Virus record (IMG/VR): IMGVR_UViG_3300025168_000690
Coordinates: 1 to 23,507 of that record
Origin: a virus
DNA: 23,507 nucleotides
Reading direction: 5' to 3' (one strand)
The position numbers and the translations under genes were made by a program. This document shows positions 4,435-21,941 of this stretch, in pieces. How positions within the stretch are numbered: the stretch's first letter is position 1; each line of letters opens with the position of its first letter. The notes under the pieces are model-generated. The model ran no database searches and was not told where the DNA came from. It saw only the letters and a list, made by a program, of their open reading frames with translations.

Positions 4435-4450
4435 ATTTAATTTCCTCTAT

Positions 4451-4924: not shown

Positions 4925-5707
4925 ATTATCTACCTCTTTTTCTTCACCGTCGTGGGTGCATTGGCACGCATCTTCTTTATGTCCATCACAACCACAATTT
5001 TCCTTAGCTGCAAATTCTCTTTCAGTGTGTGTACCACATTCCGTGTCAATCGTACATTCCCCACAGACGGGTGTTGCAATCTCGTTGTCTATAAACGAAA
5101 CCTCAACCGGCCTGATGTTAGTGGCATATGAATCACCCATAACATCGACATCTTTTGAAAACCAGTCAATACTGACGTGGGTGATGTCACCGTCTTTTAC
5201 TTTTTCTATCACTTGTGCAGTTCTCTCTGTTGGTTCAAATACTTGAGCCGTCATTGTAACTGCTACCTTTCCATTTTCTAATTCCTCAATCTTAGGATTA
5301 ATCGCCTTTCCAATTAAATCTTCGGGCGTCCTTTGGTGAGTGTAATATATAGGCAATTCATTAAAAGAGTCTAAACTCTCTTTCAGAATGCTAGGTTCTA
5401 TGAAAACCTTCTGGTCATCGCCTTCAACTTCGTAGTCGTGGCGTCCGGAGGTAATTGCCTTAATAGGAAATTCCCACATATCGGATTTTTTGTTGTCAGA
5501 TTGTTTAATCTTTTCAACATCTAATTTGAAATCCATAGCAAAACTTCTTTGGGTCTCAGTGCTGTTAGTGATTCCAAATTCCTTTTCCTGACCATTTTCT
5601 TCTGCCCACATTAGACACATACCCTGAGCCATTGTCTCAGGTTGTTCTATCCCTCTTTTTTTGAGTCGGGGACTTAACTCTGATATACATCTTTGGTACG
5701 TACTCAT
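4451..5707 (-). CDS. Prohead maturation protease fused to a scaffold domain
   Basis: 418 residues. Residues about 75-210 fit the HK97-type prohead protease family (peptidase U35/S78): a candidate catalytic His in Y-Y-T-H-Q (H124) and a candidate catalytic Ser in T-H-V-S-I-D (S179). Residues 262-418 are charged and helix/coiled-coil rich, as expected for a scaffold that is cleaved during maturation. Between them is an unusual Cys-rich linker (C215, C218, C224, C238, C240, C248, C250). An N-terminal segment of about 55 residues with two Cys (C7, C31) precedes the protease domain. The start overlaps the portal stop by ATGA, implying translational coupling. It acts in the procapsid, cleaving scaffold and capsid precursors. 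Confidence 0.82.
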   Translation of the reverse strand: MSTYQRCISELSPRLKKRGIEQPETMAQGMCLMWAEENGQEKEFGITNSTETQRSFAMDFKLDVEKIKQSDNKKSDMWEFPIKAITSGRHDYEVEGDDQKVFIEPSILKESLDSFNELPIYYTHQRTPEDLIGKAINPKIEELENGKVAVTMTAQVFEPTERTAQVIEKVKDGDITHVSIDWFSKDVDVMGDSYATNIRPVEVSFIDNEIATPVCGECTIDTECGTHTEREFAAKENCGCDGHKEDACQCTHDGEEKEVDNMSEEVVKTESEKILEREFASYKKQLEDVSSAHSELEGKYKEAIESLDTFKKAEEERQIVEATRIKKELVGNVISKELLLGRIKEDAETVRAEELTNWEDNKLSGFYEALESMPMPETEKTFGKGIVKDSEEKAIEAEPEVNRLFSMENGRMIYKGKK

Positions 5708-6984
5708 ACTTTCTCCTCAATAATCAGTTCTTTCTTAACGCCATTACCCTTTCTGTTTCCTGTTTTGTTTTTAGATAGTCTTTGTTCTGTGCGTTTACCT
5801 TCTTCTGATTTATCTTGATTCTTACCGCCACTAAGGTTTACATTAGGTTCAGTAGGTTGCATTTCTACAGTTCCATTAGGGTCAAGTCCTCTTTCTGCCC
5901 TTACTTCTCCTGATGCTAACACTCCTTCTGATAGATATATCATATCAGTCTTAGCTTTAGTGAATGCGTCTTCTACATTCAATTGTCTGAATACAAATCT
6001 CGCATCTTCGCCTAATTGTGGCATAAGTTGTGAGTTAATTGATGATTCAACTGCTTTTTGTAAATACTTTACGTAAGGTTCGAAAATAGGTCGTGCCTCT
6101 GCAGGATTAGACCACATAGTTCTTGGTACCTTAAGTGCCATATGTATTTTATCTAATAAGTCGTCTGTGTACTTACCGTACTCGAAAGCTCGGTCTGTGC
6201 CTTCTAGTTCTTTAATTTCAATATCATTACCGTGAATTATATCTTCACCGGGTTCTAAAGTATTAAATGTTTCAACAATTTCATTAATCTTATCAGGACC
6301 ATAGGGCATATCAGGCAACCCGCAGGAAATGTCGAAACGAGAGACCGCATATTTATTAAGAGCGGCACCAATGTCACGCTCTGCATAATCTTTAAGGTCT
6401 ACTAAGTATAAAATAGTATGTATGTCAGAAAGCCCGTACGCGTAATCATCAAAAGGGTTATTCTGTAATTCTACTATCTCATCAGGATTAAAACGAACAT
6501 CTTCTTGGTCTGCACCAACAGATTGGTAATACCACATTACCTGACCGTGCTCGTTTCTTTTAACATACATATTTTGAGAAGAACGCAAAACTAGGTTGTC
6601 TCCAGTCCATTCTAAATATCCGGAACCAAAGATTCGAGCATTACGTAGCCAACCGTAGATTGTCATATCAATATTGATATCAACAAACATCTTCTCTATT
6701 TTTTCTCTTAATTTTTCATCTTCCGTGACAATGTCATATCCGTCTTTAACGGCGTAAAGACAAGGAAGGTCAATCAAAGAACGTACTATTGGGTCTGATA
6801 AATAAACATTCATATAGGTTCTATTGTCACCTATGTGCTGCTCATAATTTCTTGCTCCCTGACTGTGGGAAAGTTTCAATCTTCTTATTACACCGTCACC
6901 AAAGCTGCGTGGTTTGTCTTCCGGAGTGTTCGGATTACTTCCTGTAACAGCAAAAATGCGGCGTATTGTATCACCAAGACCCAT
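5704..6984 (-). CDS. Portal protein
   Basis: About 426 residues from ATG at 6984; a TTG three codons upstream (6993) is an alternative start. The gene lies directly between terminase large subunit and protease, as expected for the portal. The sequence has the portal hallmarks: an early region with D-P-I-V-R-S-L-I-D-L-P (about 65-75), a wing with W-Y-Y-Q, then D-E-I-V-E-L, a G-L-S-D-I-H segment followed by a long helix, then M-A-L-K-V-P-R-T-M-W and a final helical region with E-G-V-L-A-S-G-E-V-R-A-E-R-G-L. The C-terminal tail is Lys/Asn-rich and likely disordered. It would form the dodecameric DNA channel at one capsid vertex. I favour ATG 6984 because a TATA box lies upstream at 7012-7022. 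The stop overlaps the protease start. Confidence 0.85.
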   Translation of the reverse strand: MGLGDTIRRIFAVTGSNPNTPEDKPRSFGDGVIRRLKLSHSQGARNYEQHIGDNRTYMNVYLSDPIVRSLIDLPCLYAVKDGYDIVTEDEKLREKIEKMFVDINIDMTIYGWLRNARIFGSGYLEWTGDNLVLRSSQNMYVKRNEHGQVMWYYQSVGADQEDVRFNPDEIVELQNNPFDDYAYGLSDIHTILYLVDLKDYAERDIGAALNKYAVSRFDISCGLPDMPYGPDKINEIVETFNTLEPGEDIIHGNDIEIKELEGTDRAFEYGKYTDDLLDKIHMALKVPRTMWSNPAEARPIFEPYVKYLQKAVESSINSQLMPQLGEDARFVFRQLNVEDAFTKAKTDMIYLSEGVLASGEVRAERGLDPNGTVEMQPTEPNVNLSGGKNQDKSEEGKRTEQRLSKNKTGNRKGNGVKKELIIEEKV

Positions 6985-7011
6985 TGGTATCAAATAATAA
7001 ATAGTCGTATG

Positions 7012-7022
7012 ATATATTTAAA
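7012..7022 (-). promoter_or_regulatory. TATA box upstream of portal gene
   Basis: On the minus strand TTTAAATATAT is centred at about 7017, so an archaeal transcript would begin near 6990, a few bases before ATG 6984. It lies in the short gap after the terminase stop, so the portal-to-capsid block may have its own promoter. A match in AT-rich DNA can arise by chance. Confidence 0.5.
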
Positions 7023-7030
7023 GGTTCGTC

Positions 7031-8713
7031 TCAAATGCCCTTCATAAACCTTCGATTAGGGTTTAAAGAGCGCCTTCCAGTACTAATTAACCCAGTTCTG
7101 CCACTTCTAGTAGGTCTAGAAGCGCTATTTTTTTTTCTGATACTAGCTCCAGTTAAAGAAGCGCTTGCAGGAAGCATTGAAAGAGCTGAATGAACCGCCA
7201 TTACACTACTATCACAATAATCGTCGTGTTTTCCGTTAGGTGCTGAAATCTTTTCAGTTTTTTGGGTAGAATCCATCACATATGTTAAATCTATGTGTTC
7301 TCTGTACCATTTCCACATCAATTTTTTGGCTTCTCCTTCTTGAACGTCAACATTTGGTACTTTAATAATACCTTTTTGAACAAATGATACATAATCACGA
7401 TAAGCATAAGTTTTTGACCCCCTCGGTCCTCCAGTAAATACAAAAGGTAAGAAATGTATACTTCTTGGAATACATTCTACCCTTATATCTTGTTCGACCG
7501 CACCTCCAATACCTGTAGCGTCAATAATAACACGAGCTGCGTTAAAATCATCAGCCACTTCCATAATACGTTGCCTTTGATAAGGTATATCGTGACCTCC
7601 AGACTTTGGACCGATTTCTTCCAAGTATAAAAGTCGTGCAATATTTCCGTCATTGGTTTTTTCAGTGCGCCATACACTAATAACAGTAGAATTAACAGAT
7701 TTGCCAATGTCAACAGCGACAGAATTATTACTTCCTGTGTCTCCAATGGTTCCGATGGTTTCTCTTGTGATGAGTTCATAGTCTTCAAAACACCTTCTTA
7801 TGTTTTCTGGGATAAATACATTTGATATGCTTTCCACAAATTCACATTCGTATTCTGTTTTCCAATGGATGGAGTCTTCACCCCATTCTGTCATTTTATT
7901 TAACATTTCTTCTTCATCATACGGTGATGAATATGCTTCACCCTTAGTAATTGCATTTCGCCAAGTGTAATGTAACCTTGTAAACGTATCTTGATACCCT
8001 TCATCAAACAAATAACGGTACATATGGTTTTCTTTGGATTTTGGTGTCCCAAGATTAATAAATGGAGCCTTATTTGCGACGATAGCTGGTTCAACATTGT
8101 CAATAAACAACTCGTCTGCTATTAAAGGTGACTCGTCTACTATTAAAAGTGTTGGGTGCTGTCCGCGAATGGATTGTCCTTGATTTGAGGGTGCTACAGG
8201 TGCTCTACGTAGGATTGTTCCGCCTTTCATTTTAATATGAGGTTTGTTATGTAGCTTATAATTAGATATTAAACTGTCTAAAAATTTATTATCTTTGAAA
8301 TGTCGTAAACAATAGTCAAAAATCAGGGCGCACTGGTCTTCTGTAGGTGCCAATACAAATACTAAATCCCTAAATCTATTAAAAAACATAAATATTACGG
8401 CTGCTACTGACAATGCCCAAGATTTACCACTACCTCTAGGTGCTAAGATTGCTAACTTTCTTTGTTTACTTGAGTCTCCATCTGGATAAGTTAATGATTT
8501 AACTATAATGTCCATTTGAAGAGGTCTTAACCTCAATGGTCTTTGTTGTTTGTCTAATAAATATGTTTCACAAAATGCTCTAACCAACTTTTCCATCTTC
8601 TTTTCGTTCTTTCTTACTTCTGCAAAAAAAATTGATAAGTTTTGTGAGTCAAACTTGTTTTGGCCACTAAGGGCTGCTTTCAATTCCTTCGTCTGATTCG
8701 CTACTGGTATCAT
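7031..8713 (-). CDS. terL: Terminase large subunit (packaging ATPase-nuclease)
   Basis: 560 residues. ATPase domain: Walker A A-P-R-G-S-G-K-S (91-98), Walker B L-L-I-V-D-E (189-194), and a coupling-type motif L-G-T-P-K-S (221-226). Nuclease (RNase H-like) domain: acidic residues in A-V-D-I-G-K (D335), I-I-D-A-T-G (D398) and H-D-D-Y-C-D-S (497-501 area), all present, so both activities look intact. It pumps DNA into the procapsid and cuts the concatemer. The start overlaps the small-subunit gene by 47 bases, with GGAGAT upstream of ATG. The C-terminal tail is Arg/Ser-rich. Length and motif order are normal for the family. Confidence 0.96.
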   Translation of the reverse strand: MIPVANQTKELKAALSGQNKFDSQNLSIFFAEVRKNEKKMEKLVRAFCETYLLDKQQRPLRLRPLQMDIIVKSLTYPDGDSSKQRKLAILAPRGSGKSWALSVAAVIFMFFNRFRDLVFVLAPTEDQCALIFDYCLRHFKDNKFLDSLISNYKLHNKPHIKMKGGTILRRAPVAPSNQGQSIRGQHPTLLIVDESPLIADELFIDNVEPAIVANKAPFINLGTPKSKENHMYRYLFDEGYQDTFTRLHYTWRNAITKGEAYSSPYDEEEMLNKMTEWGEDSIHWKTEYECEFVESISNVFIPENIRRCFEDYELITRETIGTIGDTGSNNSVAVDIGKSVNSTVISVWRTEKTNDGNIARLLYLEEIGPKSGGHDIPYQRQRIMEVADDFNAARVIIDATGIGGAVEQDIRVECIPRSIHFLPFVFTGGPRGSKTYAYRDYVSFVQKGIIKVPNVDVQEGEAKKLMWKWYREHIDLTYVMDSTQKTEKISAPNGKHDDYCDSSVMAVHSALSMLPASASLTGASIRKKNSASRPTRSGRTGLISTGRRSLNPNRRFMKGI

Positions 8714-9017
8714 CTGTTTCTAAATCTCCTAGGAAGTTCATAAAACTTTCGGTCTTCTCTTCTACTAAAGTAGGTATTTCAATATTAAGAGCGCGGAACT
8801 CAGTATGAATATCCCTAACAATCTGGTTTCTCTGTTGCAATAACTTTGTTCGAGCGTTAACATCCCGAATAGATATAGAAATTTCTTCCCACAACAGGTC
8901 TTCAATAACAAGATTTCTTGCCAAAAGACGTACAAGTTCTTTATGACGTTCATATTCTCCTTCGCCTACACGTTGTCTCAAACGAGTTTCATATTCTTCT
9001 ACTTTATCTTCCATCAT
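8667..9017 (-). CDS. Probable terminase small subunit
   Basis: 116 residues, almost fully helical, with charged helices (residues about 1-80) and an acidic Ser/Asp/Glu-rich tail. It directly precedes and overlaps the large-subunit gene, which is where the DNA-recognition small subunit normally lies. No diagnostic helix-turn-helix signature can be named with certainty, so the call rests on size, helical content and position. Two adjacent ATG codons (9017 and 9014) are possible starts. Confidence 0.65.
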   Translation of the reverse strand: MMEDKVEEYETRLRQRVGEGEYERHKELVRLLARNLVIEDLLWEEISISIRDVNARTKLLQQRNQIVRDIHTEFRALNIEIPTLVEEKTESFMNFLGDLETDDTSSESDEGIESSP

Positions 9018-9018
9018 A

Positions 9019-9333
9019 TCAACAACGCCATCGTTTTAATGCCGCACCCTTTCTAGTTAACTTACCACCTTTACTAGTTGGTCCTTTAACTCCTTTCATT
9101 CTTGCACAAAAGGATTTTCTTCTTTTAGCTGCTTTACTTCCTTTCTTAACTTTACCTGTAACTGCTGTTTTTAATTTACTTCCCGGATTCTTCCTTCTGT
9201 ATGCAGCTACACCTTTTTTTGTCATACCAGCGCCTTTACTCGTTGGTCTATAATTAGCGTTCTTACCTTTAGTTGTTTTACGTATAGGTTTACCTTTCTT
9301 TTGTTTTTTAGTAGTTTCCTTTTTTGGAGCCAT
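9019..9333 (-). CDS. Lys/Arg-rich basic protein, DUF6321-like
   Basis: 104 residues, more than one third Lys or Arg. It contains the motif K-R-R-K-S-F-C-A-R-M-K-G and a second half ending R-K-G-A-A-L-K-R-W-R-C, resembling a family of small basic proteins (DUF6321, from memory) found in marine phages and large viruses. Two Cys are conserved in that pattern (C76 area and the terminal residue). Function is not known; DNA binding or a role in the virion are inferences from charge. Its ATG overlaps the stop of the 26-residue gene upstream as TAATG. Confidence 0.75.
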   Translation of the reverse strand: MAPKKETTKKQKKGKPIRKTTKGKNANYRPTSKGAGMTKKGVAAYRRKNPGSKLKTAVTGKVKKGSKAAKRRKSFCARMKGVKGPTSKGGKLTRKGAALKRWRC

Positions 9334-9413
9334 TATTTCTTTTTACCTTTAGTGGTCTTCTTCTTTTTAGGTCTTCCAACTTTTTTACCGTATGTCCCTT
9401 TACCGTAAGGCAT
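9333..9413 (-). CDS. 26-residue AT-hook-like basic peptide
   Basis: A 26-residue ORF beginning M-P-Y-G-K-G-T-Y-G-K-K-V-G-R-P-K-K-K-K. The G-R-P core flanked by Lys resembles an AT-hook, and similar M-P-Y-G-K-G-T-Y-G openings are, from memory, widespread in small proteins of marine tailed phages. Both ends are joined by TAATG overlaps: its ATG overlaps the stop of the gene before it and its stop overlaps the ATG of the one after. This spacing supports real translation despite its size. Confidence 0.7.
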   Translation of the reverse strand: MPYGKGTYGKKVGRPKKKKTTKGKKK

Positions 9414-9706
9414 TATTTTTTCCTCTTAGTAGTTTTCTTTTTACCATTTGATTTAGGTTTTAAATTTGGGTATTTCTTGAATACCGCACGTTTAATCCCT
9501 GCAGGACGTGGTGCGTTATGAGCTAACTTCAGTGCTGACTTAGCTCTTGCTAATGTATTAATTGGGAAACTACCTGCTGGTGCTCCTCCTGAAGGCCCTG
9601 CAAAGGCTTTTACTCCTTTGTATTTACCTACGTTAGAACCACCCGGTTTTTTTCTAGCTGCCGCTTGTTTCTTTTTTGCGGGTGCTTTTTTCTTTATTGG
9701 TGCCAT
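9413..9706 (-). CDS. Lysine-rich protein with conserved G-P-S-G-G-A-P core
   Basis: 97 residues with a Lys-rich N-terminal tail (1-20) and C-terminal tail (80-97). The middle has F-A-G-P-S-G-G-A-P-A-G-S-F-P-I-N-T followed by R-A-x-S-A-L-K-L-A-H-N-A-P and G-I-K-R-A-V-F-K-K-Y-P. From memory this core resembles small conserved basic proteins in marine phages and algal viruses whose function I cannot name. Start ATG has AAGGAT upstream. It is the first of three basic genes coupled by TAATG. Confidence 0.72.
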   Translation of the reverse strand: MAPIKKKAPAKKKQAAARKKPGGSNVGKYKGVKAFAGPSGGAPAGSFPINTLARAKSALKLAHNAPRPAGIKRAVFKKYPNLKPKSNGKKKTTKRKK

Positions 9707-9717
9707 ATTATCAATCC

Positions 9718-9876
9718 TTAATTATAAATAAAGTAGTATCTGTATTCTCCAGAACCAACTTTCACTATTCCTTGAGCATATACATTAGTAATGGTCAAAG
9801 CGTTGATAGCCACATTCATAGCGACTATACAACTTGAAGCAGTTGATTCCCGTCCTTGAACTACAGAACTAGCCAT
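9718..9876 (-). CDS. Small protein of unknown function, 52 residues
   Basis: The protein begins M-A-S-S-V-V-Q-G-R-E-S and ends Y-R-Y-Y-F-I-Y-N. It is not strongly basic and has a mildly hydrophobic middle with no clear membrane span. The sequence looks beta-strand-like and could be a small structural or head-tail protein. It starts 5 bases after the stop of the 54-residue gene, and the next gene starts 11 bases after its stop. No family is recognised. Confidence 0.6.
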   Translation of the reverse strand: MASSVVQGRESTASSCIVAMNVAINALTITNVYAQGIVKVGSGEYRYYFIYN

Positions 9877-9881
9877 TATGT

Positions 9882-10046
9882 TTAACCTGAAGTAGCTGAA
9901 CTAGATAATGTACTAGGACTTTTTACGAACTTAGATTTATCTTCAGTTGCGTTAACATTTTTGGTTTCTACTCTACCACCCAAAAATAAGTCTCCGGTAT
10001 CAGTTGCATCTCTTGTGTCTTCGAATTCTTTTTTAGTTTCTGCCAT
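9882..10046 (-). CDS. Small hydrophilic protein of unknown function, 54 residues
   Basis: The protein begins M-A-E-T-K-K-E-F-E-D-T and is rich in Asp, Thr, Ser and Lys, with a Ser-rich C-terminus; probably largely disordered. Start is supported by AAGGAG upstream, located inside the end of the preceding gene. It sits between two other very small genes with close spacing, so it belongs to the same transcript. No family is recognised. Confidence 0.62.
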   Translation of the reverse strand: MAETKKEFEDTRDATDTGDLFLGGRVETKNVNATEDKSKFVKSPSTLSSSATSG

Positions 10047-10048
10047 AT

Positions 10049-10180
10049 TTATTTCTCCTTCTTAGCTTTTTTAACTGGTTTGCAATTATCACACGATTCG
10101 CAGCAAGCTAATAAGTATTCTACTTGTTGATGAAGTCCTTCAACTTGTTTAACTAACTCCTCTTGTTCGAAATCGTTCAT
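10049..10180 (-). CDS. Small Cys-containing helical protein, 43 residues
   Basis: A helical first part (residues 1-24) leads to L-L-A-C-C-E-S-C-D-N-C-K, four Cys spaced C-C-x2-C-x2-C that could bind zinc or another metal, and then a Lys-rich tail (K-K-A-K-K-E-K). The ATG overlaps the preceding stop as ATGA, which indicates coupled translation. Function unknown. Confidence 0.62.
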   Translation of the reverse strand: MNDFEQEELVKQVEGLHQQVEYLLACCESCDNCKPVKKAKKEK

Positions 10181-10353
10181 TTTTTACCCTTTGATTTTTT
10201 AGCAGCTTTCTTTTTAGCTGGTACTTTAACTTCAGGTTTAACTTCAGGTTTTTCTTCAACTAGGGGTGCCTCACGTAGTGGGGCTTCTAGTATAATATTA
10301 CCGTGTCTGTCTCTTTTAGGAGCTGGTTTCTCTCTTGCGTGTAATTGTGTCAT
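10177..10353 (-). CDS. Small basic protein with Lys-rich tail, 58 residues
   Basis: The protein begins M-T-Q-L-H-A-R-E-K, has a Pro/Glu/Lys repeat (K-P-E-V twice) and ends K-K-K-A-A-K-K-S-K-G-K-K. The tail resembles histone-H1-like or other DNA-contacting tails. Start has GAGGT at good spacing, and a TATA box lies at 10387-10394, making this the first gene of the small-protein run leading to the terminase genes. Function unknown; nucleic-acid binding is an inference from charge. Confidence 0.62.
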   Translation of the reverse strand: MTQLHAREKPAPKRDRHGNIILEAPLREAPLVEEKPEVKPEVKVPAKKKAAKKSKGKK

Positions 10354-10386
10354 AATTAACCTCTAAACAAATTACGTTACGTTAAC

Positions 10387-10394
10387 ATATAAAT
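10387..10394 (-). promoter_or_regulatory. TATA box before the small-protein/terminase block
   Basis: The minus-strand sequence TTTATATG is followed by TTAACG. Transcription would be expected near 10365, leaving about 12 bases of leader with GAGGT before ATG 10353. The box lies just past the stop of the holin-like gene. Confidence 0.5.
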
Positions 10395-10401
10395 GTTTCG
10401 G

Positions 10402-10764
10402 TCACTTTTTGCTTTCCATCTTATGCTCTTGGTCTTGTGCTTTGCTCTCTACATCTTGTGCTTGTTTCAATACAGCATCGTTATAATCGATAACTGCTTG
10501 AGCTTTCACTTTGTAAAATGCTGTCTTCTCTGCTTGTTCTTGTTTCCAAACATCTAGGGCATCTTTGATAATTAGAAGGGCTGGCCCACCTAATATAGCT
10601 ATCAAAGTTGTATATGCTTCAATGTTGTCAAGAACTTCAGGTTTACCAAGTCCGCTATGTATAACGAACCCTGCAAACCCAACCCAGAGTAAGACTAGTG
10701 GTACGGCAATCATAAACATAAACACATCGTTAAATGTAGTTCCTTCTCTTGCTTCTTTACTCAT
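10402..10764 (-). CDS. Shorter two-span form of the membrane protein from an internal start
   Basis: An in-frame ATG at codon 61 (10764) is preceded by AAGGAGG with 8 bases between it and the ATG, a better ribosome site than that of the GTG start. It would produce a 120-residue protein, M-S-K-E-A-R-E-G onward, with two membrane spans and lacking the first. Either this is the true gene and the upstream part belongs to a longer minor form, or both forms are made, as in dual-start holin systems. Confidence 0.5.
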   Translation of the reverse strand: MSKEAREGTTFNDVFMFMIAVPLVLLWVGFAGFVIHSGLGKPEVLDNIEAYTTLIAILGGPALLIIKDALDVWKQEQAEKTAFYKVKAQAVIDYNDAVLKQAQDVESKAQDQEHKMESKK

Positions 10765-10944
10765 ATTTTCAGTCCTCCTTTTTTCTTTTTGTTCCTTTTG
10801 TGGAAGTTTGATTGTCGGTAATTTGATACCTGACAGTAACTTCCGTATATATGCAATCATCAGTATAATAAAGGTTGTCGCTGTAACAGCTAATAAAGTT
10901 ATTATCACTATCAACAGTATATTTGTAATCGTATCGAATATCAC
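10402..10944 (-). CDS. Membrane protein, three spans, holin-like
   Basis: 180 residues from a GTG directly after the upstream TGA, with GGAGGAGG inside the end of the previous gene. Predicted membrane spans by eye: residues about 8-33, 72-95 and 108-126. A charged stretch (Lys/Glu/Arg, 48-62) separates the first from the second, and the C-terminal 45 residues are charged, helical and soluble. Small size, several spans and a charged tail are features of holins, but also of other membrane proteins. No sequence family is recognised. Position next to a surface-anchored protein and upstream of packaging genes fits a late cell-envelope function. Confidence 0.6.
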   Translation of the reverse strand: MIFDTITNILLIVIITLLAVTATTFIILMIAYIRKLLSGIKLPTIKLPQKEQKEKRRTENMSKEAREGTTFNDVFMFMIAVPLVLLWVGFAGFVIHSGLGKPEVLDNIEAYTTLIAILGGPALLIIKDALDVWKQEQAEKTAFYKVKAQAVIDYNDAVLKQAQDVESKAQDQEHKMESKK

Positions 10945-11895
10945 TCATTCCTCCTCCAGAATAATCTCAGGGATGTAAAAGTAATTGACCCATTCATAAG
11001 TGCCATTACTGCCGTAATCTGCATAAAGATTGACATATACCATATACCATCCAGTATAAGGTTCTGTAAAGTATTCTGGACCAGAAGTCATTGTATACTC
11101 GTTAGATTCCCAACCTGTTACGTTGTAGAAATGGTCAGTCCACATATACCCGTTCCATACAGTTTCATTGTCTTCTACCTTGATGTGCCCAACGTCGAAT
11201 GTCACCATCACAGGCAAATCTTCTTGGTCGCAATTTGTGTCTATATCTACTGTGATGTTGAGGGTATTATCTTCCCTAGAGTAGTTTCCATACTGCATAC
11301 CGTTGTAAAAATAAGTTTGATTGGCTACACATTCGTATTCTTCGTACTCGCAACTCCCATCGTCCTCTTCAGCTCTGTCGTTGTAGTTCTCTGCGTCTAT
11401 GTCCATACACCCATAAATTGTTTCGTTGGTCTGGGTCTCATTGTTACCTGTGTTGTTATCGACTGGGCCGCCAAGAAATTGACAACGCCCATTGTCGTGA
11501 GTTGCCTCCTTGTTATAATTTTCTGCATCTGGATTAGTACACCCATAAACTACAGGTGGTGGAAAGGCACAGCTCCCATTATCAAACGTAGCTTTGTTGT
11601 TAAAATTTATAGCCCCCGGGTCCATACAACCGCCTACCGGTCCCACTTCTTCTTCGCCCCATAAATCTGTCAACATACCTAAATCCGCTGTACCACTTCC
11701 GAACATCGCTAAAATAATTACTGTTAGAATTGAACCAATCTTTTTACCAAATTTAGTCTCGCCTAGTTTATCTCCTGCTTTACCAATGGTTTCGAAAAGA
11801 CCTTCTTCTTCATCTGGTCGAGGGCCTCCGAGCCCTAATGCTTCTCGCTCTTCATCTGAAATAACGTTAATTGCACCGTAATCATCTCGCGCCAT
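10945..11895 (-). CDS. Membrane-anchored surface protein with three C-x-D-P-x-A-x-N-Y repeats
   Basis: 316 residues. Residues 1-50 are charged and would be cytoplasmic or internal; a membrane span lies at about 53-68. Three repeats of about 20 residues follow (C90-C109, C119-C138, C163-C182), each of the form C-x-(D/N)-P/I-x-A-x-N-(Y/F)-(N)-x3-A-x2-D-(D/N)-G-x-C. The rest (about 185-316) is Asp/Asn/Tyr/Thr-rich and beta-like, with many N-x-(S/T) sequons, fitting an exposed and possibly glycosylated domain. Such repeats are known in secreted proteins of marine bacteria and, to my memory, of Marine Group II archaea. Role in adsorption, envelope interaction or lysis is inferred. The start follows a TATA box by 27 bases, so the mRNA is probably leaderless. 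Confidence 0.72.
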   Translation of the reverse strand: MARDDYGAINVISDEEREALGLGGPRPDEEEGLFETIGKAGDKLGETKFGKKIGSILTVIILAMFGSGTADLGMLTDLWGEEEVGPVGGCMDPGAINFNNKATFDNGSCAFPPPVVYGCTNPDAENYNKEATHDNGRCQFLGGPVDNNTGNNETQTNETIYGCMDIDAENYNDRAEEDDGSCEYEEYECVANQTYFYNGMQYGNYSREDNTLNITVDIDTNCDQEDLPVMVTFDVGHIKVEDNETVWNGYMWTDHFYNVTGWESNEYTMTSGPEYFTEPYTGWYMVYVNLYADYGSNGTYEWVNYFYIPEIILEEE

Positions 11896-12051: not shown

Positions 12052-12981
12052 ATGAAAGAAACTCAAAGTGACTCAGAAGAGTTCACGTACACTGTCAAAT
12101 ATGACATAGAAAATGATACAGAAATAGATTGGACGCCAAGCGAGTTCCGTTTGTCGCCCTCTAAGATAAATACTTTTTTAAAATGCCCACGTCAATTTTA
12201 CCATAAGTATATCGAAAAACTCCCTGACCAATTAACATTACATTTGTTTCGTGGTTCTATAGTTCACGAAATACTTGAGGATATATTCGAAAAGGAATTC
12301 AAGTACCCTAGTCGTTGGCGAAACGGCGAACCAGCGGAGTGGGCTGTTTTAGAATTTAATAAAAGATGGACTGCTCGTAAAGCAAAGATGCCGTGGTTAT
12401 GGAAGAACCCCGCCATCGACGGCGATGTTATGGAACGGGAAAGTATCGACCTTTTGGTCAACTTCTGTACTCGTGTCGAAAAGAAACTGTATGAACTAAT
12501 GGATTGGAAAGTCGCGCGTTCTAAAGATATGGCGTTCAAACAACTTAAACCAACATTCGCTGAGATGCGTGTCCATAATAAAGAATTTAAAATAATGGGC
12601 ATTATAGATGTTATCCAAAAAGATTTCGAGGGTAATATCTCCATCGTTGATTATAAAACCAGTAAGCGTTACGGAAGCTGGTTACCTGACGATTACTATC
12701 GCCAGTTAATAATATACGCCCTGTTATATCAAGAAGAAACCGGGGTACGCCCAAAATTCGCGGGCATCGATTGGTTGCGGTACGACGACGTTTACTTTGT
12801 GGCTATAAACGATGGTGTTATCGAAGAAGCGCGGGAACTCATCAAAGGCATACACGACGAATTAAAGAAAAGGGGGGACGACGTTGAGCAGTATGAAATG
12901 GTTCCGCAAACCCTTTGTAAGTGGTGCGCCTTTTATAAAAAGCCCTGTACACCCAAAGGTATATATTCTAAGAAGAAGTAA
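12052..12981 (+). CDS. Fe-S PD-(D/E)XK nuclease, RecB/Cas4-like
   Basis: 309 residues. Motifs in order: S-P-S-K-I-N-T-F-L-K-C-P-R-Q-F-Y (35-50, containing C45), R-G-S-I-V-H (67-72), G-I-I-D (183-186), V-D-Y-K-T-S (199-204; D200, K202), and Q-L-I-I-Y (218-222), with a C-terminal C289-x2-C292-x6-C299. Together C45 and the three C-terminal Cys fit the 4Fe-4S cluster of Cas4/AddB-type nucleases, and the D-D-x-K set fits an active nuclease. It would degrade or resect DNA ends in replication or recombination. It has no adjacent Cas genes, so a CRISPR role is not indicated. It stands alone behind a leaderless promoter divergent from the structural arm. Confidence 0.88.
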   Translation: MKETQSDSEEFTYTVKYDIENDTEIDWTPSEFRLSPSKINTFLKCPRQFYHKYIEKLPDQLTLHLFRGSIVHEILEDIFEKEFKYPSRWRNGEPAEWAVLEFNKRWTARKAKMPWLWKNPAIDGDVMERESIDLLVNFCTRVEKKLYELMDWKVARSKDMAFKQLKPTFAEMRVHNKEFKIMGIIDVIQKDFEGNISIVDYKTSKRYGSWLPDDYYRQLIIYALLYQEETGVRPKFAGIDWLRYDDVYFVAINDGVIEEARELIKGIHDELKKRGDDVEQYEMVPQTLCKWCAFYKKPCTPKGIYSKKK

Positions 12982-15994: not shown

Positions 15995-16147
15995 GTCTAA
16001 GCAAGTTCTCACCAAACACCAAACGTGGTCCTGAGCTAAGACCTTAAACTGGCTCAAATTTTTTGTCGTGCTAAGAAGTGCCTTGCCGTAAGCATCACGC
16101 GCTTGCGCTGCTCAAAGCATAATTTATGATGTGCCGTATCTTTACGC

Positions 16148-16262
16148 GGTGCTCAAGGTTTCATCGGTGTGCTCAAGTGAGAAAGGTTGCTCTAATTGTG
16201 TGAGCACCTACATCAGGGTGCTGTGTTGGAAATGCTTCATCAACCCCTTTTTTTTGAGCACC
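16148..16262. repeat. GGTGCTCAA repeats, direct and inverted
   Basis: GGTGCTCAA (16148-16156) and GTGCTCAA (16169-16176) lie about 20 bp apart as direct repeats. A related GCTCTA is at 16189, GTGTGAGCACC at 16198-16208, and TTGAGCACC at 16254-16262 is the exact inverse of the first copy. Spacing near two helical turns suggests a protein that binds an array, or an iteron-like element. Confidence 0.5.
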
Positions 16263-16400
16263 TCTTGCAAACTTGCTCTGCTCACATTTACGTGGCTCTC
16301 CACCAACAACTGTTACGCTCAATGAGAAACTGAACCTAAACTGGTTCTAGTTTGCTGAACTGGTTTGGGTGTGTGTGTGCTTGTTAACACAAGGTCCCAA

Positions 16401-16436
16401 AGCATACGTTTAATGACAAATTATAGCATACGTATG
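16401..16436. repeat. AGCATACGT pair, reverse of the divergent-promoter motif
   Basis: AGCATACGT at 16401-16409 and 16425-16433 is the reverse complement of the core of TTAAC(A/G)TATGC from 11975 and 11995. The second copy sits in the perfect palindrome CATACGTATG (16427-16436). Confidence 0.5.
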
Positions 16437-16528
16437 ATTAAGAGCATAATAGGGCACTCTCTCTCTTATTGCTCAATAGAGTTCATATCTAATATATCTT
16501 GCTTAGTGATACTAGAGCACAATATATC

Positions 16529-16539
16529 TTAACATATGC
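16529..16539. repeat. Exact copy of TTAACATATGC motif
   Basis: The 14 bases CTTAACATATGCTT here equal those at 11974-11987 in the divergent promoter region. A shared binding protein is the simplest explanation. Confidence 0.5.
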
Positions 16540-16596
16540 TTCTAAACAAATGATAAGCATACTCTACTAAGCCCTGTGCTTATATGGTGCTGGTTC

Positions 16597-16680
16597 TATA
16601 TAAGTTCTTGCTTAGTGTATATAAGGCATAACGTATAGCACCCGCGATTTTTAACCGCTCAACCATATCTTTATATAAAA
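16597..16680 (+). promoter_or_regulatory. Three TATA boxes in tandem before the right-arm operon
   Basis: TATATAAG at 16597-16604 and again at 16618-16625 (21 bp apart), and TTTATATAAAA at 16670-16680. The last would start transcription near 16701, giving about 50 bases of leader before ATG 16753. Tandem boxes imply more than one start, possibly timed differently. Confidence 0.6.
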
Positions 16681-16699
16681 TCTCGTCTCTGCTGATATA

Positions 16700-16740
16700 C
16701 TTGTAAGCACTCTGTAAAAAAAAGATTGGTGCTTTACAAG
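16700..16740 (+). promoter_or_regulatory. Inverted repeat at the expected transcript 5' end
   Basis: CTTGTAAGCAC (16700-16710) pairs with GTGCTTTACAAG (16729-16740), with one bulged base and an 18-base A-rich loop. Its left arm begins where the 16670 TATA box predicts the transcript start. It could be an operator over the start site, or a hairpin stabilising the mRNA 5' end. Confidence 0.55.
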
Positions 16741-16752
16741 TAGGAAAGCAAA

Positions 16753-17127
16753 ATGCAAATGACAAAGAAAGCAAAAAATGAAATAGAAGCATCAGTAGGA
16801 TGTGCTCTAAATCTATTGCCCAGCACTATAGTGGATAAATTATATGCCGCTTATGAACGTGCTGTAGCTAAGATGAAAAGAGAGCAGGCTATTGAGAAGA
16901 AATATGCTTACCCAATTAGTGGTAACAGAGCGCAAGACCAGAAACACTATCAGCATCCAGTCCCAAAAATACAGCGGTATCGACAAGCTCGGCATATTCA
17001 CGAGGGATTAGTTCACAGCATTGTATGTAGTTGCTTTAAAACTGACACAGCAGCTATACCGTGTCCATTTAAGCCAGATGTTGTGGTCGGGCCGCTCGCA
17101 GACTATTGGAGCAAATATGACAAGTGA
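16753..17127 (+). CDS. Hypothetical protein, 124 residues, first gene of right-arm operon
   Basis: The first part (1-50) is helical and basic; the second has H-I-H-E-G-L-V-H-S-I-V-C-S-C-F and P-C-P-F, so Cys and His are gathered in residues about 81-104 and may bind a metal. A second ATG lies two codons downstream (16759). There is no recognisable family. It overlaps the next gene by 11 bases. Being first behind the strongest-looking promoter of the arm, it may be an early regulator, but that is only inference from position. Confidence 0.62.
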   Translation: MQMTKKAKNEIEASVGCALNLLPSTIVDKLYAAYERAVAKMKREQAIEKKYAYPISGNRAQDQKHYQHPVPKIQRYRQARHIHEGLVHSIVCSCFKTDTAAIPCPFKPDVVVGPLADYWSKYDK

Positions 17128-17491
17128 TGCACCAGCATTGACTGACCGAATGCTCGTTGAGTTGAGTAATTATATGACAAGGCTCAAGGGAACAAGGCCA
17201 ATGCTTAACTTATATCCCGTAGACACAGCACTGAGTCATTCAATAAGAAAATGTGCTGCTATTTGGTTAGAGAAAAACCAGCAGACTCTGTCACACGTGG
17301 ACATCGACAACTTCCTACGGCAGTTGTTCCAATCACTTGCTGACAAAGATGTTAATGAGTCAGCAGTATTAAATGATATTAAAAAGCATTCCGGTGTGGG
17401 TTATGTCAATGGTGGCATATCCGGCAAGAATGAATACAGCAAAGATAAGAGTCGTGTAGACGGCAGAATGTATCAGACAAAAAGACGATGA
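17117..17491 (+). CDS. Hypothetical helical protein, 124 residues
   Basis: I chose ATG 17117, because upstream codons in this frame lie inside the previous gene in a different frame and give unlikely protein. The protein M-T-S-D-A-P-A-L-T-D is mostly helical from 8 to 95, with a Lys/Gly/Asn-rich C-terminal tail ending K-R-R. No catalytic motif or Cys cluster is seen. Its stop overlaps the next start as ATGA. Confidence 0.62.
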   Translation: MTSDAPALTDRMLVELSNYMTRLKGTRPMLNLYPVDTALSHSIRKCAAIWLEKNQQTLSHVDIDNFLRQLFQSLADKDVNESAVLNDIKKHSGVGYVNGGISGKNEYSKDKSRVDGRMYQTKRR

Positions 17492-17670
17492 TAAGAGCAA
17501 TGGTCGATAGAGTTAAAGTGAGCAACAAAATGGTTATTTGCATACCTTTCTCCGATGCTGGCTTTAACTCCGACAAATTACGCTCAACCGAGTCTTTATA
17601 TGCAATGAAACCACTGCTTATTCCTCGTAAAGCAATCGAGAAAAATGGAGGAAATGAATGCCGAATATAA
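17488..17670 (+). CDS. Hypothetical protein, 60 residues
   Basis: Starts M-I-R-A-M-V-D-R-V-K and carries V-I-C-I-P-F-S-D-A-G-F. ATGA overlap with the gene before it and 13-base overlap with the zinc-protein gene after it. The 3' end carries GGAGG that serves as ribosome site for the next ATG. No family recognised; small size keeps confidence moderate. Confidence 0.5.
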   Translation: MIRAMVDRVKVSNKMVICIPFSDAGFNSDKLRSTESLYAMKPLLIPRKAIEKNGGNECRI

Positions 17671-19424
17671 ACTGTGAACGCTGTTCTGAACAAGTAAATG
17701 CTGCTGATATAGAATCTACTGATGACTATGAAGCAGTATGCAAACCTTGTATGGAAGAATTTTATAATTGTGCTGACTGTCAGTCGCTCTCAGATGATGA
17801 AGATGGTATAACTGTTAGTCACGGCAAAATATGTTCCTCTTGTTATGAAAGCGGTGATTATGTAAATTGCGATTGCTGTGAAGAGATAATAAATCTCGGT
17901 AGAGAAACAGCATATTGTGACAGTGAAAACACGGGTAACTATGCTTGTGAAGATTGTGGTGATGAAGAACTAACTACTTGTAATTGTGGCTCTTCCATTC
18001 TTTGGAATGAAGTTGATTCAAGCAGCTATTATGAGGGAGAGTGCTATGACTGTTATAATAATCCAAGAGCAGAAATAAGCCGCTCAATTTCAAGCAATGC
18101 TACGACATTATCAAGAAATACCATTCATACTTTAGAATCATACAGAACCATAACTCCAGCAACCAGAAATTTCGCTGCTTGGTTTTATCAAGGTGAAGAA
18201 GACCATTACGAGAACATCAATAAAGAAATAGTTAAGGGTGCTATGGGTGTATACCTTGCTGATACTACACCAGAAAAAGCACCAGCTTGGTGGAATGGTG
18301 AAATGTCCATTACAAGCAGAGTATACAAAGATACAGCTGAAATAATCACAAAATTAATATCATCAAATACATTTTTGACCGAGCATAAAAAGTATGGTCT
18401 TTACCACCCTATGCGACATCTATTTGCTAAGCACATACAATATCGACGACTTGTTGGAGAGCACGGTGGACGTCATTCAGAAGAAATCAACGGCACTGAT
18501 GTGTCATTACAAGACCAAGGCCAAAATTATTTTAACTATGTTATCGATTATATTCGTAAGAATGATTTAGCTGAACAATTATCCACTAATAAAACAAATG
18601 AAGGAGCAGATTTACGTCGAGCCATCAACCAAATATTTAATAGAGCATATAAAAACAGATTACCTCAGTGGATTGCTGGATTAAGAGACGAACGGAATGA
18701 GCAACATTGGAATGATACCTTACAAAAATACAATACTAATGCTACCAACGTCAAGTTAGGTATAAGCATTGGTTTCGAAAGTAATATTGAATTTTTACGA
18801 CAAGTAGACCGATTTAACAGCAGAAGTAGTAGTTGTCAATTAGCAAGTAATAGAAATTCATATGGCTTTGGTTATATGGATATGTTTGTGAACCCACATC
18901 TATTTGCTTTTATCAGAAACAGTGAAGAAGAAATCATAGGTCGCTCAGTAATTAGATTATTCAAGCAGAATAACCAAGTATCGTGGGATAACGATGCTGA
19001 CCCTGTGTTTGTAGCACCTTCAAGATTATATTTAACAGAGCATACACAATCAAAATCAGAAGTGTATGTATCATTATTCAAAGCAGTAAATGAATGGGCT
19101 AAGACTACATTCCCAGTTCATAAGTTGATTGCTTATCGTGGTTCACGTCACGACAGCAGTATTCGTTCAATACTTGCACAACATCCTACAGCTCTATCTT
19201 TTGATGATACAGGAGACCGCACAAATTTAGTAACTCAAAGATGGTTGCCGTATTGGCACGAAAAACCATTGAGCGATGATTGCGACTATACCTATTATCA
19301 AGATGAAGACCAAAGAACAAGATATTACCAAATAAACGATAGTAACTCTACAGCTACACAATATACAGTTGAAGAGCAACTATACAGTGACAGTTACGCA
19401 ATAGTGGAATTAGAAAATGACTAA
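17658..19424 (+). CDS. 588-residue protein with multi-zinc N-terminal region
   Basis: Start ATG has GGAGG six bases upstream. Residues 1-132 hold 18 Cys, mostly as C-x2-C pairs: C6/C9, C28/C31, C38/C41, C59/C62, C71-C73-C74, C87, C97/C100, C108-C110, C129/C132. This resembles stacked LIM/RING-like treble clefts or zinc ribbons and could hold four or more zinc ions. Residues about 140-360 are helical and polar, without a known motif. Residues 370-590 have S-S-C-Q (C393), G-R-S-V-I-R (428-433) and P-S-R-L-Y (454-458), a pattern I faintly associate with uncharacterised phage PcfJ-like proteins, but this is weak. Asp/Asn/Ser/Tyr are abundant. It overlaps the peptidase gene by 8 bases. Possible roles: nucleic-acid or protein recruitment, ubiquitin-ligase-like function, or host-takeover; none is shown. 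Confidence 0.72.
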   Translation: MPNINCERCSEQVNAADIESTDDYEAVCKPCMEEFYNCADCQSLSDDEDGITVSHGKICSSCYESGDYVNCDCCEEIINLGRETAYCDSENTGNYACEDCGDEELTTCNCGSSILWNEVDSSSYYEGECYDCYNNPRAEISRSISSNATTLSRNTIHTLESYRTITPATRNFAAWFYQGEEDHYENINKEIVKGAMGVYLADTTPEKAPAWWNGEMSITSRVYKDTAEIITKLISSNTFLTEHKKYGLYHPMRHLFAKHIQYRRLVGEHGGRHSEEINGTDVSLQDQGQNYFNYVIDYIRKNDLAEQLSTNKTNEGADLRRAINQIFNRAYKNRLPQWIAGLRDERNEQHWNDTLQKYNTNATNVKLGISIGFESNIEFLRQVDRFNSRSSSCQLASNRNSYGFGYMDMFVNPHLFAFIRNSEEEIIGRSVIRLFKQNNQVSWDNDADPVFVAPSRLYLTEHTQSKSEVYVSLFKAVNEWAKTTFPVHKLIAYRGSRHDSSIRSILAQHPTALSFDDTGDRTNLVTQRWLPYWHEKPLSDDCDYTYYQDEDQRTRYYQINDSNSTATQYTVEEQLYSDSYAIVELEND

Positions 19425-20694
19425 GCAACAGAAAACAGAGAACAAAGCGGCAGTTATAGAACTGCCAGAGCCTAGCACAAGCATTACCACCAAAATACCA
19501 GATATGGAAGCAATAAGTGACATCGATATGCTGTCATCTATGTTATCAATCTACAGCCCAAGTGGGTCCGAGCACCCTATGATTGCGTATGTTACGCAAT
19601 ACTTGAAGCAACAGAAGATTGATTACGAGATAGACACAGCTGGAAATATATATTTCAGCAACGATGTAGAGGGTGACCAACGCATCTTACTTAATGCACA
19701 TATGGACACAGTAGGTTCCGCTGCTCCTGACATAATAGTCGAGCAGATAAAAGATAACGGAACAGTGCTCCATTCAACCAACAATCAGGTAATTGGCGGC
19801 GATGACAAATGCGGTGTATTTGCAGTATTACGAATGATAAGTAATAAAGCAATTGACACCCCGTTAAGTGGCTTACTAACAGTAAGTGAAGAAACAGGAT
19901 GTAACGGAGCAAGACACGCAATGGACCATCACAGTGATAAGTTCAGCGATATTGTATTCAACATCACAATAGATAGAAACGGTCATACTGACATCATCAC
20001 ACAAAATAGTGACTACAAACTATGCTCAGATGTGATGGATAAGATGTTACAAGAATGGGGTAAGCCATTTGACCTTAGAACTACAAGTGGCTCTATATCT
20101 GATGTAAGTGAGATAGTATCAACCTTAGACATCAACGGTATCAATCTATTTGCTGGTTATTATAATGCACATTCAGGTAAAGAATACATAATTATGGAGC
20201 ATTTATATGAATCTATAGCATTTGCTACACATTTAGTGCCTAAATTACTTCAGCATTTCAAAAACCATCCAGAACATATCAAGTTTGAAGCAACCAAAGC
20301 ATTTAATTATGCATACGGTGCATATGACTGGTCATCTTACGAAAACTACGGCGGTATCAAATACTACGGTGGTAAATCAGGGTGGACTAAAACGCTCCCT
20401 GAGTCAGACAGTGACACAGATAATATACTAGAATTCTTTGACGCTTTAGATAAAGTAGAAGCAAATGAAGGTGGATATTGTGGGCTTGATAGACTAGCTG
20501 ACGATAACGCAATAAGAATCAGCGGGTCAGGCAAATCTATAGTAATACCTGAAGCATTTGTTAATTACTTTGCAGAAATGGATATGCTGGAAGATTATCT
20601 ACCAGTAGCTCAGAATGGATATGATGGTATAATTGCTATCACCGACATCAAAGTATTTTTAGATACAACAAGAGCAGAAGGGTTTGAAGTGTGA
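19417..20694 (+). CDS. Metallopeptidase of the M20/M28/M42 type
   Basis: 425 residues. Metal-ligand motifs in order: L-N-A-H-M-D-T (H95, D97), I-G-G-D-D-K-C-G (D129/D130), S-E-E-T-G (E158, E159), a further Asp in I-T-I-D-R (D186), and Y-N-A-H-S-G-K-E (H252). The front part S-P-S-G-S-E is also typical. All ligands for a two-zinc site are present, so it looks active. Only about 65 residues lie between D186 and H252, so the dimerisation/lid domain of most M20 enzymes is missing, and the layout is closer to M28/M42-type cores. Residues about 290-425 form an unassigned C-terminal extension with two Gly/Tyr-rich segments. Substrates could be short peptides or acyl-amino acids. Overlaps its neighbours on both sides. 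Uncommon in tailed viruses. Confidence 0.83.
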   Translation: MTKQQKTENKAAVIELPEPSTSITTKIPDMEAISDIDMLSSMLSIYSPSGSEHPMIAYVTQYLKQQKIDYEIDTAGNIYFSNDVEGDQRILLNAHMDTVGSAAPDIIVEQIKDNGTVLHSTNNQVIGGDDKCGVFAVLRMISNKAIDTPLSGLLTVSEETGCNGARHAMDHHSDKFSDIVFNITIDRNGHTDIITQNSDYKLCSDVMDKMLQEWGKPFDLRTTSGSISDVSEIVSTLDINGINLFAGYYNAHSGKEYIIMEHLYESIAFATHLVPKLLQHFKNHPEHIKFEATKAFNYAYGAYDWSSYENYGGIKYYGGKSGWTKTLPESDSDTDNILEFFDALDKVEANEGGYCGLDRLADDNAIRISGSGKSIVIPEAFVNYFAEMDMLEDYLPVAQNGYDGIIAITDIKVFLDTTRAEGFEV

Positions 20695-21062
20695 AGCGAT
20701 ATAAAAGAGGAAAGGCCGGTAAGGCTAGAGTTATGTGTCCTGAATGCAAAGAAAAATCATCAAGTCGTATGCGACACGAGCCAGAAAATGATAACAGTCA
20801 CGAGAGCTATCACTGTGAGGTTTGCAAAGAGCATTGGCACGTAAGTGAAGTAATTGTAGAGGAATACAAGACTGCTGTGTTTATAGGTAATGATGGTAAA
20901 GCAAAGTTTATTGCACTGACTGACGAGAGAAAGAAAAAGTTAGCTGAGGAAACTGAGATGTGGAATAAATATTCAATGAGACGCAGCCGAGACGAGAAGG
21001 GGTTGTTCACTGGTTCTTTAAGTAAAAAAGACAGTAACCTGCTGAAGAGGTTGAGAAAGTGA
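20691..21062 (+). CDS. Zinc-ribbon protein, 123 residues
   Basis: GTG start in a GTGA overlap with the peptidase stop; ATG at codon 15 is a weaker choice because it lies at the first knuckle. C16-x2-C19 and C42-x2-C45 form a zinc ribbon, with H-W-H next to it. The tail is rich in Lys/Arg. A transcription-factor-like or nucleic-acid-contacting ribbon is possible. GTGA overlap also with the next gene. Confidence 0.65.
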   Translation: MKRYKRGKAGKARVMCPECKEKSSSRMRHEPENDNSHESYHCEVCKEHWHVSEVIVEEYKTAVFIGNDGKAKFIALTDERKKKLAEETEMWNKYSMRRSRDEKGLFTGSLSKKDSNLLKRLRK

Positions 21063-21235
21063 AACGCCGGAAGAAAGTATCAGAGATTGACAAGGATATG
21101 ATTCGTGAATATTACGGCGATAGTAAGTATTGGAGGAAACGTTTGCTCAAGAATAAGAACCCAAGAGGAACAGGACACAGCACTTATAAAGAACTAATAA
21201 AGAAGAGGAATAAAAAAAATGACACAGTTATATAG
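21059..21235 (+). CDS. Small basic protein, 58 residues
   Basis: GTG start in GTGA overlap with the previous stop. Very basic, with M-K-R-R-K-K-V and K-K-R-N-K-K at the ends. Overlaps the following gene by 17 bases. Possibly nucleic-acid binding by charge; no family recognised. Confidence 0.55.
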   Translation: MKRRKKVSEIDKDMIREYYGDSKYWRKRLLKNKNPRGTGHSTYKELIKKRNKKNDTVI

Positions 21236-21941
21236 AATAGAAAAGCAAGACTGGGATAATTCATCAGCTCACCAATTAATATCGGAGTGGAGCACACATA
21301 ATGTTTGTTATGCTGAAATGATTAAGAATGAGAACATCACGCCAGATGAAGCAGTTGAATTAAGTCAGTATGGGCCACGTAATGGGTGTTTTCAATTTGC
21401 AGCCATCTACCGCAAGAACGAACACAATTACATATGGCGAGGCCGTAGAGTGCCTACTGTAATCAGGGACAGACTCATCAAAATGTTAATAAGTGATGAC
21501 CCAGCAAAACAAAAAGAAGGGACTATGCTGTTATACAAGACAAGTGGTAATTCACGAGTAGACAATAGGCTCTTTTACCCTGTCAGATTAAGTAATAATA
21601 GATACACATTTCAAATGGGTTCTTTGGCAGGTTTACAGCAGTTTATGAATGATAATTACAATACTGATGAAAAACAGGATTCATTTAATGTGATATTTAA
21701 AATGTGGGCAGTAGAGCACTTACTTGATTACGATGAAGTTAAGTTCTATGGTTCACGATACCGTCGAAGAGCTATGATGGCTTTCTTAATGGACACATTA
21801 GTAACCCTTGACGAGTATAAAGAGCTTTATCACAATACTTCTTCAAATGAGGGCCTTCTTCGAGCAACACATTGTGTTTGGAAAGATGGACAGATAACAG
21901 AGTGGGAGCGATGTGGTCAAAACATACATCCAAAGATTTAA
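21219..21941 (+). CDS. Hypothetical protein, 240 residues
   Basis: Mixed alpha/beta appearance: front part Y-R-I-E-K-Q-D-W-D-N-S-S-A, then N-G-C-F-Q-F-A-A-I-Y-R and R-V-D-N-R-L-F-Y-P-V-R-L, then a helical end with a W-A-V-E-H-L-L-D-Y and Y-R-R-R-A-M-M segment. No recognised motif, signal or membrane span. AGAGG lies upstream of the ATG, inside the end of the preceding small gene. The next gene begins two bases after its stop, so it is in the same transcript. Confidence 0.7.
   Translation: MTQLYRIEKQDWDNSSAHQLISEWSTHNVCYAEMIKNENITPDEAVELSQYGPRNGCFQFAAIYRKNEHNYIWRGRRVPTVIRDRLIKMLISDDPAKQKEGTMLLYKTSGNSRVDNRLFYPVRLSNNRYTFQMGSLAGLQQFMNDNYNTDEKQDSFNVIFKMWAVEHLLDYDEVKFYGSRYRRRAMMAFLMDTLVTLDEYKELYHNTSSNEGLLRATHCVWKDGQITEWERCGQNIHPKI

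Follow-up and report, generated by a model that had tools for sequence, protein, structure and literature searches.

A clan MH metallopeptidase gene and a zinc-rich partner gene recur side by side in tailed phages

The locus and its close relatives

The window, by which we mean the whole 23.5-kb virus record analysed here, is probably a fragment. Its minus strand carries a virion module (positions 2-11895) encoding a tail fibre, major head protein, decoration protein, portal and terminase large subunit, the last having only distant relatives among GenBank phages (best approximately 22-28% identity). A run of plus-strand genes opens with a PDDEXK exonuclease (12052-12981; Pfam PF12705 4.5e-27, Cas4-like 3.2e-7) and extends from 12052 to the end of the window. 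Eight open reading frames (ORFs) within this longer run are the subject of this study (Table 1). A first-pass annotation had delimited them from the letters of the sequence, and their coordinates, lengths and overlaps, which amount to 4-17 nt between neighbours, were all reproduced. Its placing of the eight behind one promoter region found no support, as 41 promoter-like sites were counted against 36.4 ± 6.9 in shuffles, and the genes sit inside the longer plus-strand run. The approximately 760 bp ahead of the first gene (15995-16752), which contain no convincing plus-strand gene, could carry regulatory signals. An Rfam search returned no match.

Table 1 Features of the eight-gene segment, in window coordinates
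Feature	Coordinates	Strand	Basis
124-aa protein, first gene of the local cluster	16753..17127	+	ORF; homologues at same position in L216 (45% identity) and L217 (34%)
124-aa protein	17117..17491	+	ATG start; homologues in L216 (79%), L217 (60%), L219 (38%) and L218 (33%)
60-aa ORF, uncertain gene	17488..17670	+	Similar-sized ORFs at equivalent spot in L216 and L219
588-aa partner: N-terminal zinc array, middle region, C-terminal probable SC-box (weakly GNAT-like) domain	17658..19424	+	
Zinc array of the 588-aa protein, residues 1-132	17658..18053	+	Cys positions
Probable SC-box domain, residues ~375-560 of the 588-aa protein	18780..19337	+	HHalign to SC-box profile
Stop/start overlap of the 588- and 425-aa genes, 8 nt, ATGACTAA	19417..19424	+	Sequence
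425-aa clan MH metallopeptidase, phrog_4191 type	19417..20694	+	Pfam and PHROG profiles, metal ligands
123-aa protein, one CxxC...CxxC zinc-ribbon-like motif	20691..21062	+	GTG start; weak zinc-ribbon profile matches
58-aa basic protein	21059..21235	+	GTG start; homologues at same position in L216 (83%) and L217 (77%)
240-aa protein	21219..21941	+	Homologues at same position in L216 (34%) and L217 (33%)

Scanning IMG/VR with a peptidase alignment recovered four related loci, L216 to L219, whose peptidases are 77, 66, 46 and 43% identical to that of the window, respectively, and a later scan added further contigs including L298 and L299. A homologue of the 588-aa protein lies directly upstream of the peptidase in all four loci (51, 40, 34 and 35% identity) and likewise in L298, where the genes encode, in order, 131, 582, 433, 146, 73 and 257 aa. 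Seven of the eight ORFs have homologues that follow one another in unchanged order, in full in L216 and L217 and in part in L218, L219 and L298. The stop/start overlap at the 588/425 junction recurs in L216 to L219, the pair and its overlap being retained down to 43% peptidase identity. Conservation of the eight-gene segment is confined to close relatives, and the unit is the 588/425 pair alone. IMG/VR scans with either protein of the pair as single query gave no match, and tblastn of the 588-aa protein against GenBank phages returned no record.

Neither the product of 16753..17127 nor the 240-aa protein matches a Pfam or PHROG family. The gene at 17117..17491 is contained in a mechanically called ORF that opens at a TTG at 17021, and similar ORFs of 131 aa occur in L298 and L299. 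The 60-aa ORF, which yielded no homologue by BLAST, is the least certain member of the eight. The 123-aa gene is kept immediately 3' of the peptidase in L216 to L219, and a 60-aa zinc-ribbon ORF occupies its position in the gut phage L002. When the pair and its surroundings were compared with the PADLOC anti-phage defence models, neither the 588- nor the 425-aa protein was matched, and the 123-aa protein alone gave a weak zinc-ribbon match.

The peptidase and its SC-box partner

In agreement with the first-pass annotation, the 425-aa protein belongs to the clan MH peptidases. It matches Pfam M42 (2.9e-7) and M28 (5e-5) as well as the M20 family, PHROG phrog_4191 'peptidase' (2.7e-41) and, under the cut-off, a PepT-like NCBIfam model (1.2e-12), and its set of clan MH metal ligands is complete (H95, D97, D129, E158-E159, D186 and H252). 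H95, D129, E158/E159, D186 and H252 are invariant across 14 phage homologues, and the motifs HxD and EExG each occur in 241, and GxDD and YxxxH each in 239, of the 242 peptidases collected. The protein has the same HxD...DD...EE...D...H pattern as the M28, M42 and M20 members of the clan (PepT-like, TET1, LysK) but adds a C-terminal extension of 150 residues and scores far under the curated NCBIfam cut-offs. M42 glutamyl aminopeptidases carry a dimerisation domain inserted between HxD and DD. The identity of such an enzyme was considered for the window protein, whose score exceeds the Pfam M42 gathering score (30.3 versus 23.2), and was rejected because the insert is missing, approximately 30 residues separating HxD from DD (D97 to D129), and the NCBIfam equivalog cut-offs are missed.

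The 588-aa partner begins with a dense zinc array. Its first 132 residues hold exactly 18 Cys, as had been counted before, and the other 456 hold 2. The array consists of four tandem LIM-like CxxC...CxxC units, namely C6 C9 C28 C31, C38 C41 C59 C62, C71 C73/C74 C97 C100 and C108 C110 C129 C132, and 13 of its Cys are invariant in five relatives. Searches of Pfam, PHROG, NCBIfam and PADLOC gave no match for the 588-aa protein, to a known virion family or otherwise, and its single-sequence AlphaFold model reached a pLDDT of 33.

Large proteins encoded beside such peptidases share the motifs S-C-M, (G)R-A, R-x-Y and P-Y-x-D in this order, and we name them the SC-box family (motif set SC[M/Q], GR[A/S], RxY, PY). 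It is a phage family without an earlier name. IMG/VR scans found at least 140 SC-box loci, along with more than 500 peptidase loci, and a single homologue is cellular, on a short contig of a Flavobacteriaceae MAG. Profile comparison by HHalign joins the SC-box proteins to the partners of the Klebsiella phage KP34 type (7.7e-10 with clean alignments; 5e-9 with domain cut-outs) and of the gut-phage type (1.3e-12). A value of 5e-63 for the KP34 type was discarded, since members of the first family had found their way into the second alignment. The window protein has the motifs in family order and invariant among its relatives (S392-C393-Q394, G428-R429-S430, S455-R456-L457-Y458 and PY near residue 531), with the Asp of PYxD replaced by His. 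Its profile matches that of the SC-box over 72 columns with the SC motif in register (E=2.8e-5, P=74%), compared with a best value of 0.0053 among 200 column shuffles and 0.32 for the reversed alignment. With two more relatives included the value was 4.6e-5, and the KP34-type and gut-type profiles align weakly at the same motif. On these profile matches, the 588-aa protein probably belongs to the SC-box family. The C-terminal zinc region of the KP34-type partner aligns onto the window array (HHalign E=5.5e-4).

The fold of the family was approached with the SC-box member L021, for which AlphaFold2 with an 89-sequence alignment gave a model of high confidence (pLDDT 95.1, pTM 0.86). Nearly all of its top 50 PDB neighbours in Foldseek have the GNAT fold (RimI, Eis, HPA2, NMT), for example RimI 7n1l (prob 0.97, TMt 0.44, E 0.01). 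Target-normalised TM scores rise to 0.47 and query-normalised scores are approximately 0.22, with no PDB entry at E < 0.001. By predicted element order, the match spans a strand-strand-strand-helix-strand core, and the DRIY strand of L021 passes through a 3-residue turn into a helix (E197-206, H210-221). Unlike its GNAT neighbours, the SC-box lacks the acetyl-CoA loop Q/RxxGxG/A after strand 4, its consensus being without GxG, and places an invariant Cys ahead of a core helix; none of the 89 members matches a Pfam acetyltransferase. The model thus points weakly to a GNAT-like fold, in which catalysis may be lost because the acetyl-CoA loop is missing. In BFVD, the model matched uncharacterised phage proteins, except for one 'putative hydrolase'. 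The residues invariant in the family are S, C, R, R, Y, P and D, and a papain-like protease is unlikely because this set contains no His. A relation to PcfJ was also considered and dropped, as Pfam PF14284 is absent from the window protein and from the 89 SC-box members.

The gene pair and its zinc modules across phages

By tblastn, relatives of the peptidase are found in at least 270 phage records, mostly of Klebsiella phages, in which a gene labelled 'putative peptidase' adjoins a 'hypothetical protein' that is given no function. A large partner adjoins the peptidase in Klebsiella KP34 (gp10), Pectobacterium PPWS2, Vibrio KF1 and Bradyrhizobium BDU-MI-1, and also in the gut phage MT840031, Thermus TSP4, Cellulophaga phi38:1 and Lak-type megaphages. 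For a systematic count, loci were collected via peptidase similarity only and grouped at 50% identity into 32 clusters, which are single-linkage groups and not a phylogeny; a gene counted as adjacent if it shared the strand and lay no more than 350 nt away, and the controls were the remaining genes of these loci that encode 250 aa or more. An SC-box/zinc partner is adjacent in 22 of the 32 clusters, as opposed to 4 of 488 control genes (0.8%). Three or four clusters of WSSC type are counted in the 22 on the strength of BLAST links, which may run via zinc units. When the HMM tags are made strict (E<1e-5), an adjacent partner is present in 15 of the 32. A tally of SC-box genes in just 17 of 80 peptidase loci on the contig pieces was replaced by this all-type count, as it had used a Lak-only profile and was low because that profile missed the KP34, gut and window types.

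An adjacent SC-box gene is missing in 10 of the 32 clusters. Within one large peptidase cluster, 47 of 54 loci instead have an unrelated-looking TKWC protein directly upstream, which bears the motif C..GxxTKWC..(Y) (examples are L233, L237, L239, L269 and L276, among others), and in EF5 and L252 a WSSCH/NSCH protein takes the partner's place. The TKWC and WSSC/SCH proteins are alike in layout and were considered as SC-box homologues, but profile comparison gives no link. On 41 contigs the peptidase has no SC-box neighbour; 23 of these carry an SC-box match at some other position, approximately 18 of the matches being strong and the remainder marginal.

Upstream partners mostly lie -88 to +59 nt from the peptidase. 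The partner may also stand downstream, or on both sides as in Thermus TSP4, and this variation indicates that the pair is not one inherited block; no fusion of the two genes was found. In TSP4 (L005:5332-8201) the SC-box genes flank the peptidase, and a Lon/MoxR-like ATPase and a vWA gene follow approximately 3 kb downstream. Tandem SC-box copies precede the peptidase in L017 and L064, and the megaphage records LR756501-LR756504 and LR745206 each encode several SC-box paralogues, at 7-15 places in every record. In Klebsiella phage vB_VIPKPNMC07C (L006:3303-4977) the homologue of KP34 gp10 is split into two ORFs of 442 and 113 aa.

The closest cultured counterpart of the window pair is formed by gp10 (phrog_6980) and gp11 (phrog_4191) of KP34, which have the same gene order and a stop/start junction, and lie in the early region before the primase. 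The KP34 partner likewise combines SC-box motifs with a Cys-rich region, which is C-terminal there and N-terminal, in four units, in the window. The two partners are related only at profile level and the peptidases are approximately 25% identical. The window pair is a variant of this gp10-gp11 type, with the zinc array at the N-terminus instead. The first-pass annotation, which knew of no such module in tailed viruses, is corrected by these cultured phages, and its concern that homologues of the two proteins might never be neighbours elsewhere is answered by the cluster count. Both genes are already known as separate annotations, and what is newly recognised is the pair as a module, of which excerpts from the mainly open-access literature give no account.

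Furthermore, the zinc modules are mobile. The LIM-like array sits at the partner's N-terminus in the window type, at the partner's C-terminus in L220, L225, L232, L241 and L282, and at the C-terminus of the peptidase in L222, L238, L287, L262 and phi38:1; only one cluster has it on both proteins. A module of which one copy is needed, no matter which of the two neighbouring genes carries it, indicates that the two proteins act together, and this shifting of the array between the genes bears out the first-pass suggestion that they work as one unit. The arrays could also be structural. The four-Cys LIM-like units found in the window and other pairs are not of the CxxCxGxG type seen in DnaJ and BSD2. 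Such DnaJ/BSD2-type repeats end the SC-box proteins of several large phages, and both kinds of zinc unit are joined in phages to SC-box or peptidase domains and not to J domains; L073:4443-6143, L083:4584-6167 and L045:4479-6032 each combine an SC-box with 10-14 repeats at approximately 11-residue spacing.

Possible roles of the pair

We are confident that the 588- and 425-aa proteins are functionally linked: adjacency in many unrelated phages indicates that they very probably do one job together, early in infection. Early expression is what we infer from the position of the pair here and in KP34-like and PhiM1-like phages, where it precedes the primase. In published comparisons of these phages, the peptidase (IPR007484) is among six conserved early-region ORFs and the preceding gene is conserved too (excerpts of PMC6115819 and PMC4411677), and the core gene table of Kp34likevirus includes both genes (PMC4411677, in part). 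More broadly, several phage groups have the peptidase on record as a core or auxiliary gene (PMC4411677, PMC12619734 and PMC9723777, in part). Excerpts of a jumbo-phage review make no mention of M20 or M28 peptidases (PMC7824862).

Our preferred reading, put forward tentatively, is that of a linked, early, non-virion pair that processes peptides and includes a GNAT-like transferase step; that step is, by itself, a shade more tentative. The two proteins would be the components of one enzyme module, produced early in infection. The zinc array would dock a polypeptide (or RNA) substrate, the SC-box would bind or transfer an aminoacyl or acyl group at the substrate's N-terminus via its conserved Cys, Arg and Tyr, and the peptidase would trim the exposed residue or strip the conjugate, in a modify-then-cleave or writer-eraser scheme whose outcome may be the takeover of host or defence components. 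We infer the sequence of steps in this scheme, as well as its donor and its target. A functional precedent is Rac of phiKMV, a phage GNAT that marks the host RNA polymerase alpha subunit, which is then cleaved (PMC7824862, in part). A stronger version, which we regard as somewhat doubtful, would be a phage-wide modify-and-cleave system that couples a zinc-armed GNAT-fold transferase without acetyl-CoA to a clan MH exopeptidase or deacylase, possibly transferring the aminoacyl or acyl group through the invariant Cys, and that would rewrite or remove host protein N-termini or peptide signals. Recognition of a unit that is conserved across many lineages, whose zinc modules are interchangeable and whose partner protein is GNAT-like, makes a single testable system of early infection out of two orphan genes, and the pair could reveal a new phage route for processing host proteins or peptide signals.

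On the other hand, the SC-box/zinc protein may be a catalytically inert adaptor, which would take hold of a host protein or peptide and pass it to the peptidase for targeted proteolysis. The mobility of the arrays between both genes would suit such an adaptor, as would a GNAT-like core without its cofactor loop and the DnaJ/BSD2-type CxxCxGxG repeats on some SC-box proteins, a zinc-repeat fold that binds unfolded polypeptide. We nevertheless consider an inert adaptor rather unlikely, because the invariant polar residues (S146, C147, R181, R203, Y205 and D265 in L021) exceed what a scaffold needs, and because compact clan MH peptidases are usually exopeptidases and not degraders of folded proteins.

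Salvage of amino acids or peptides is a less probable role. The peptidase, as the product of an auxiliary metabolic gene, would then recycle host peptides with support from its partner. Peptidases of the window type are related to the PepT, LysW-lysine hydrolase and ArgE/DapE families, some stand without a partner, and in megaphages the gene has been counted as an auxiliary metabolic gene (PMC9723777, in part). Salvage explains neither why the zinc/SC-box neighbour is frequent in lytic phages of small size nor why the zinc array may sit on either protein, and we judge it unlikely.

A role in virion assembly or maturation is more improbable again. It is suggested by Thermus phages, whose peptidase lies a few kb from a gene pair annotated as MoxR-like/Lon ATPase and vWA, since MoxR-vWA pairs have been predicted to act in virion assembly (PMC7824862, in part). 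The window pair is encoded on the strand opposite to the virion genes, the KP34-like and PhiM1-like pairs sit in the early region, and the bands seen in KP34-like virions were assigned to other proteins (PMC4411677, in part), all of which argue against it. Finally, chance neighbourhood or an annotation artefact might draw on the window partner's direct sequence link to other SC-box proteins, which is only moderate, but is highly improbable given the excess in 22 of 32 clusters over 4 of 488 controls and a pair that keeps its stop/start overlap to 43% peptidase identity.
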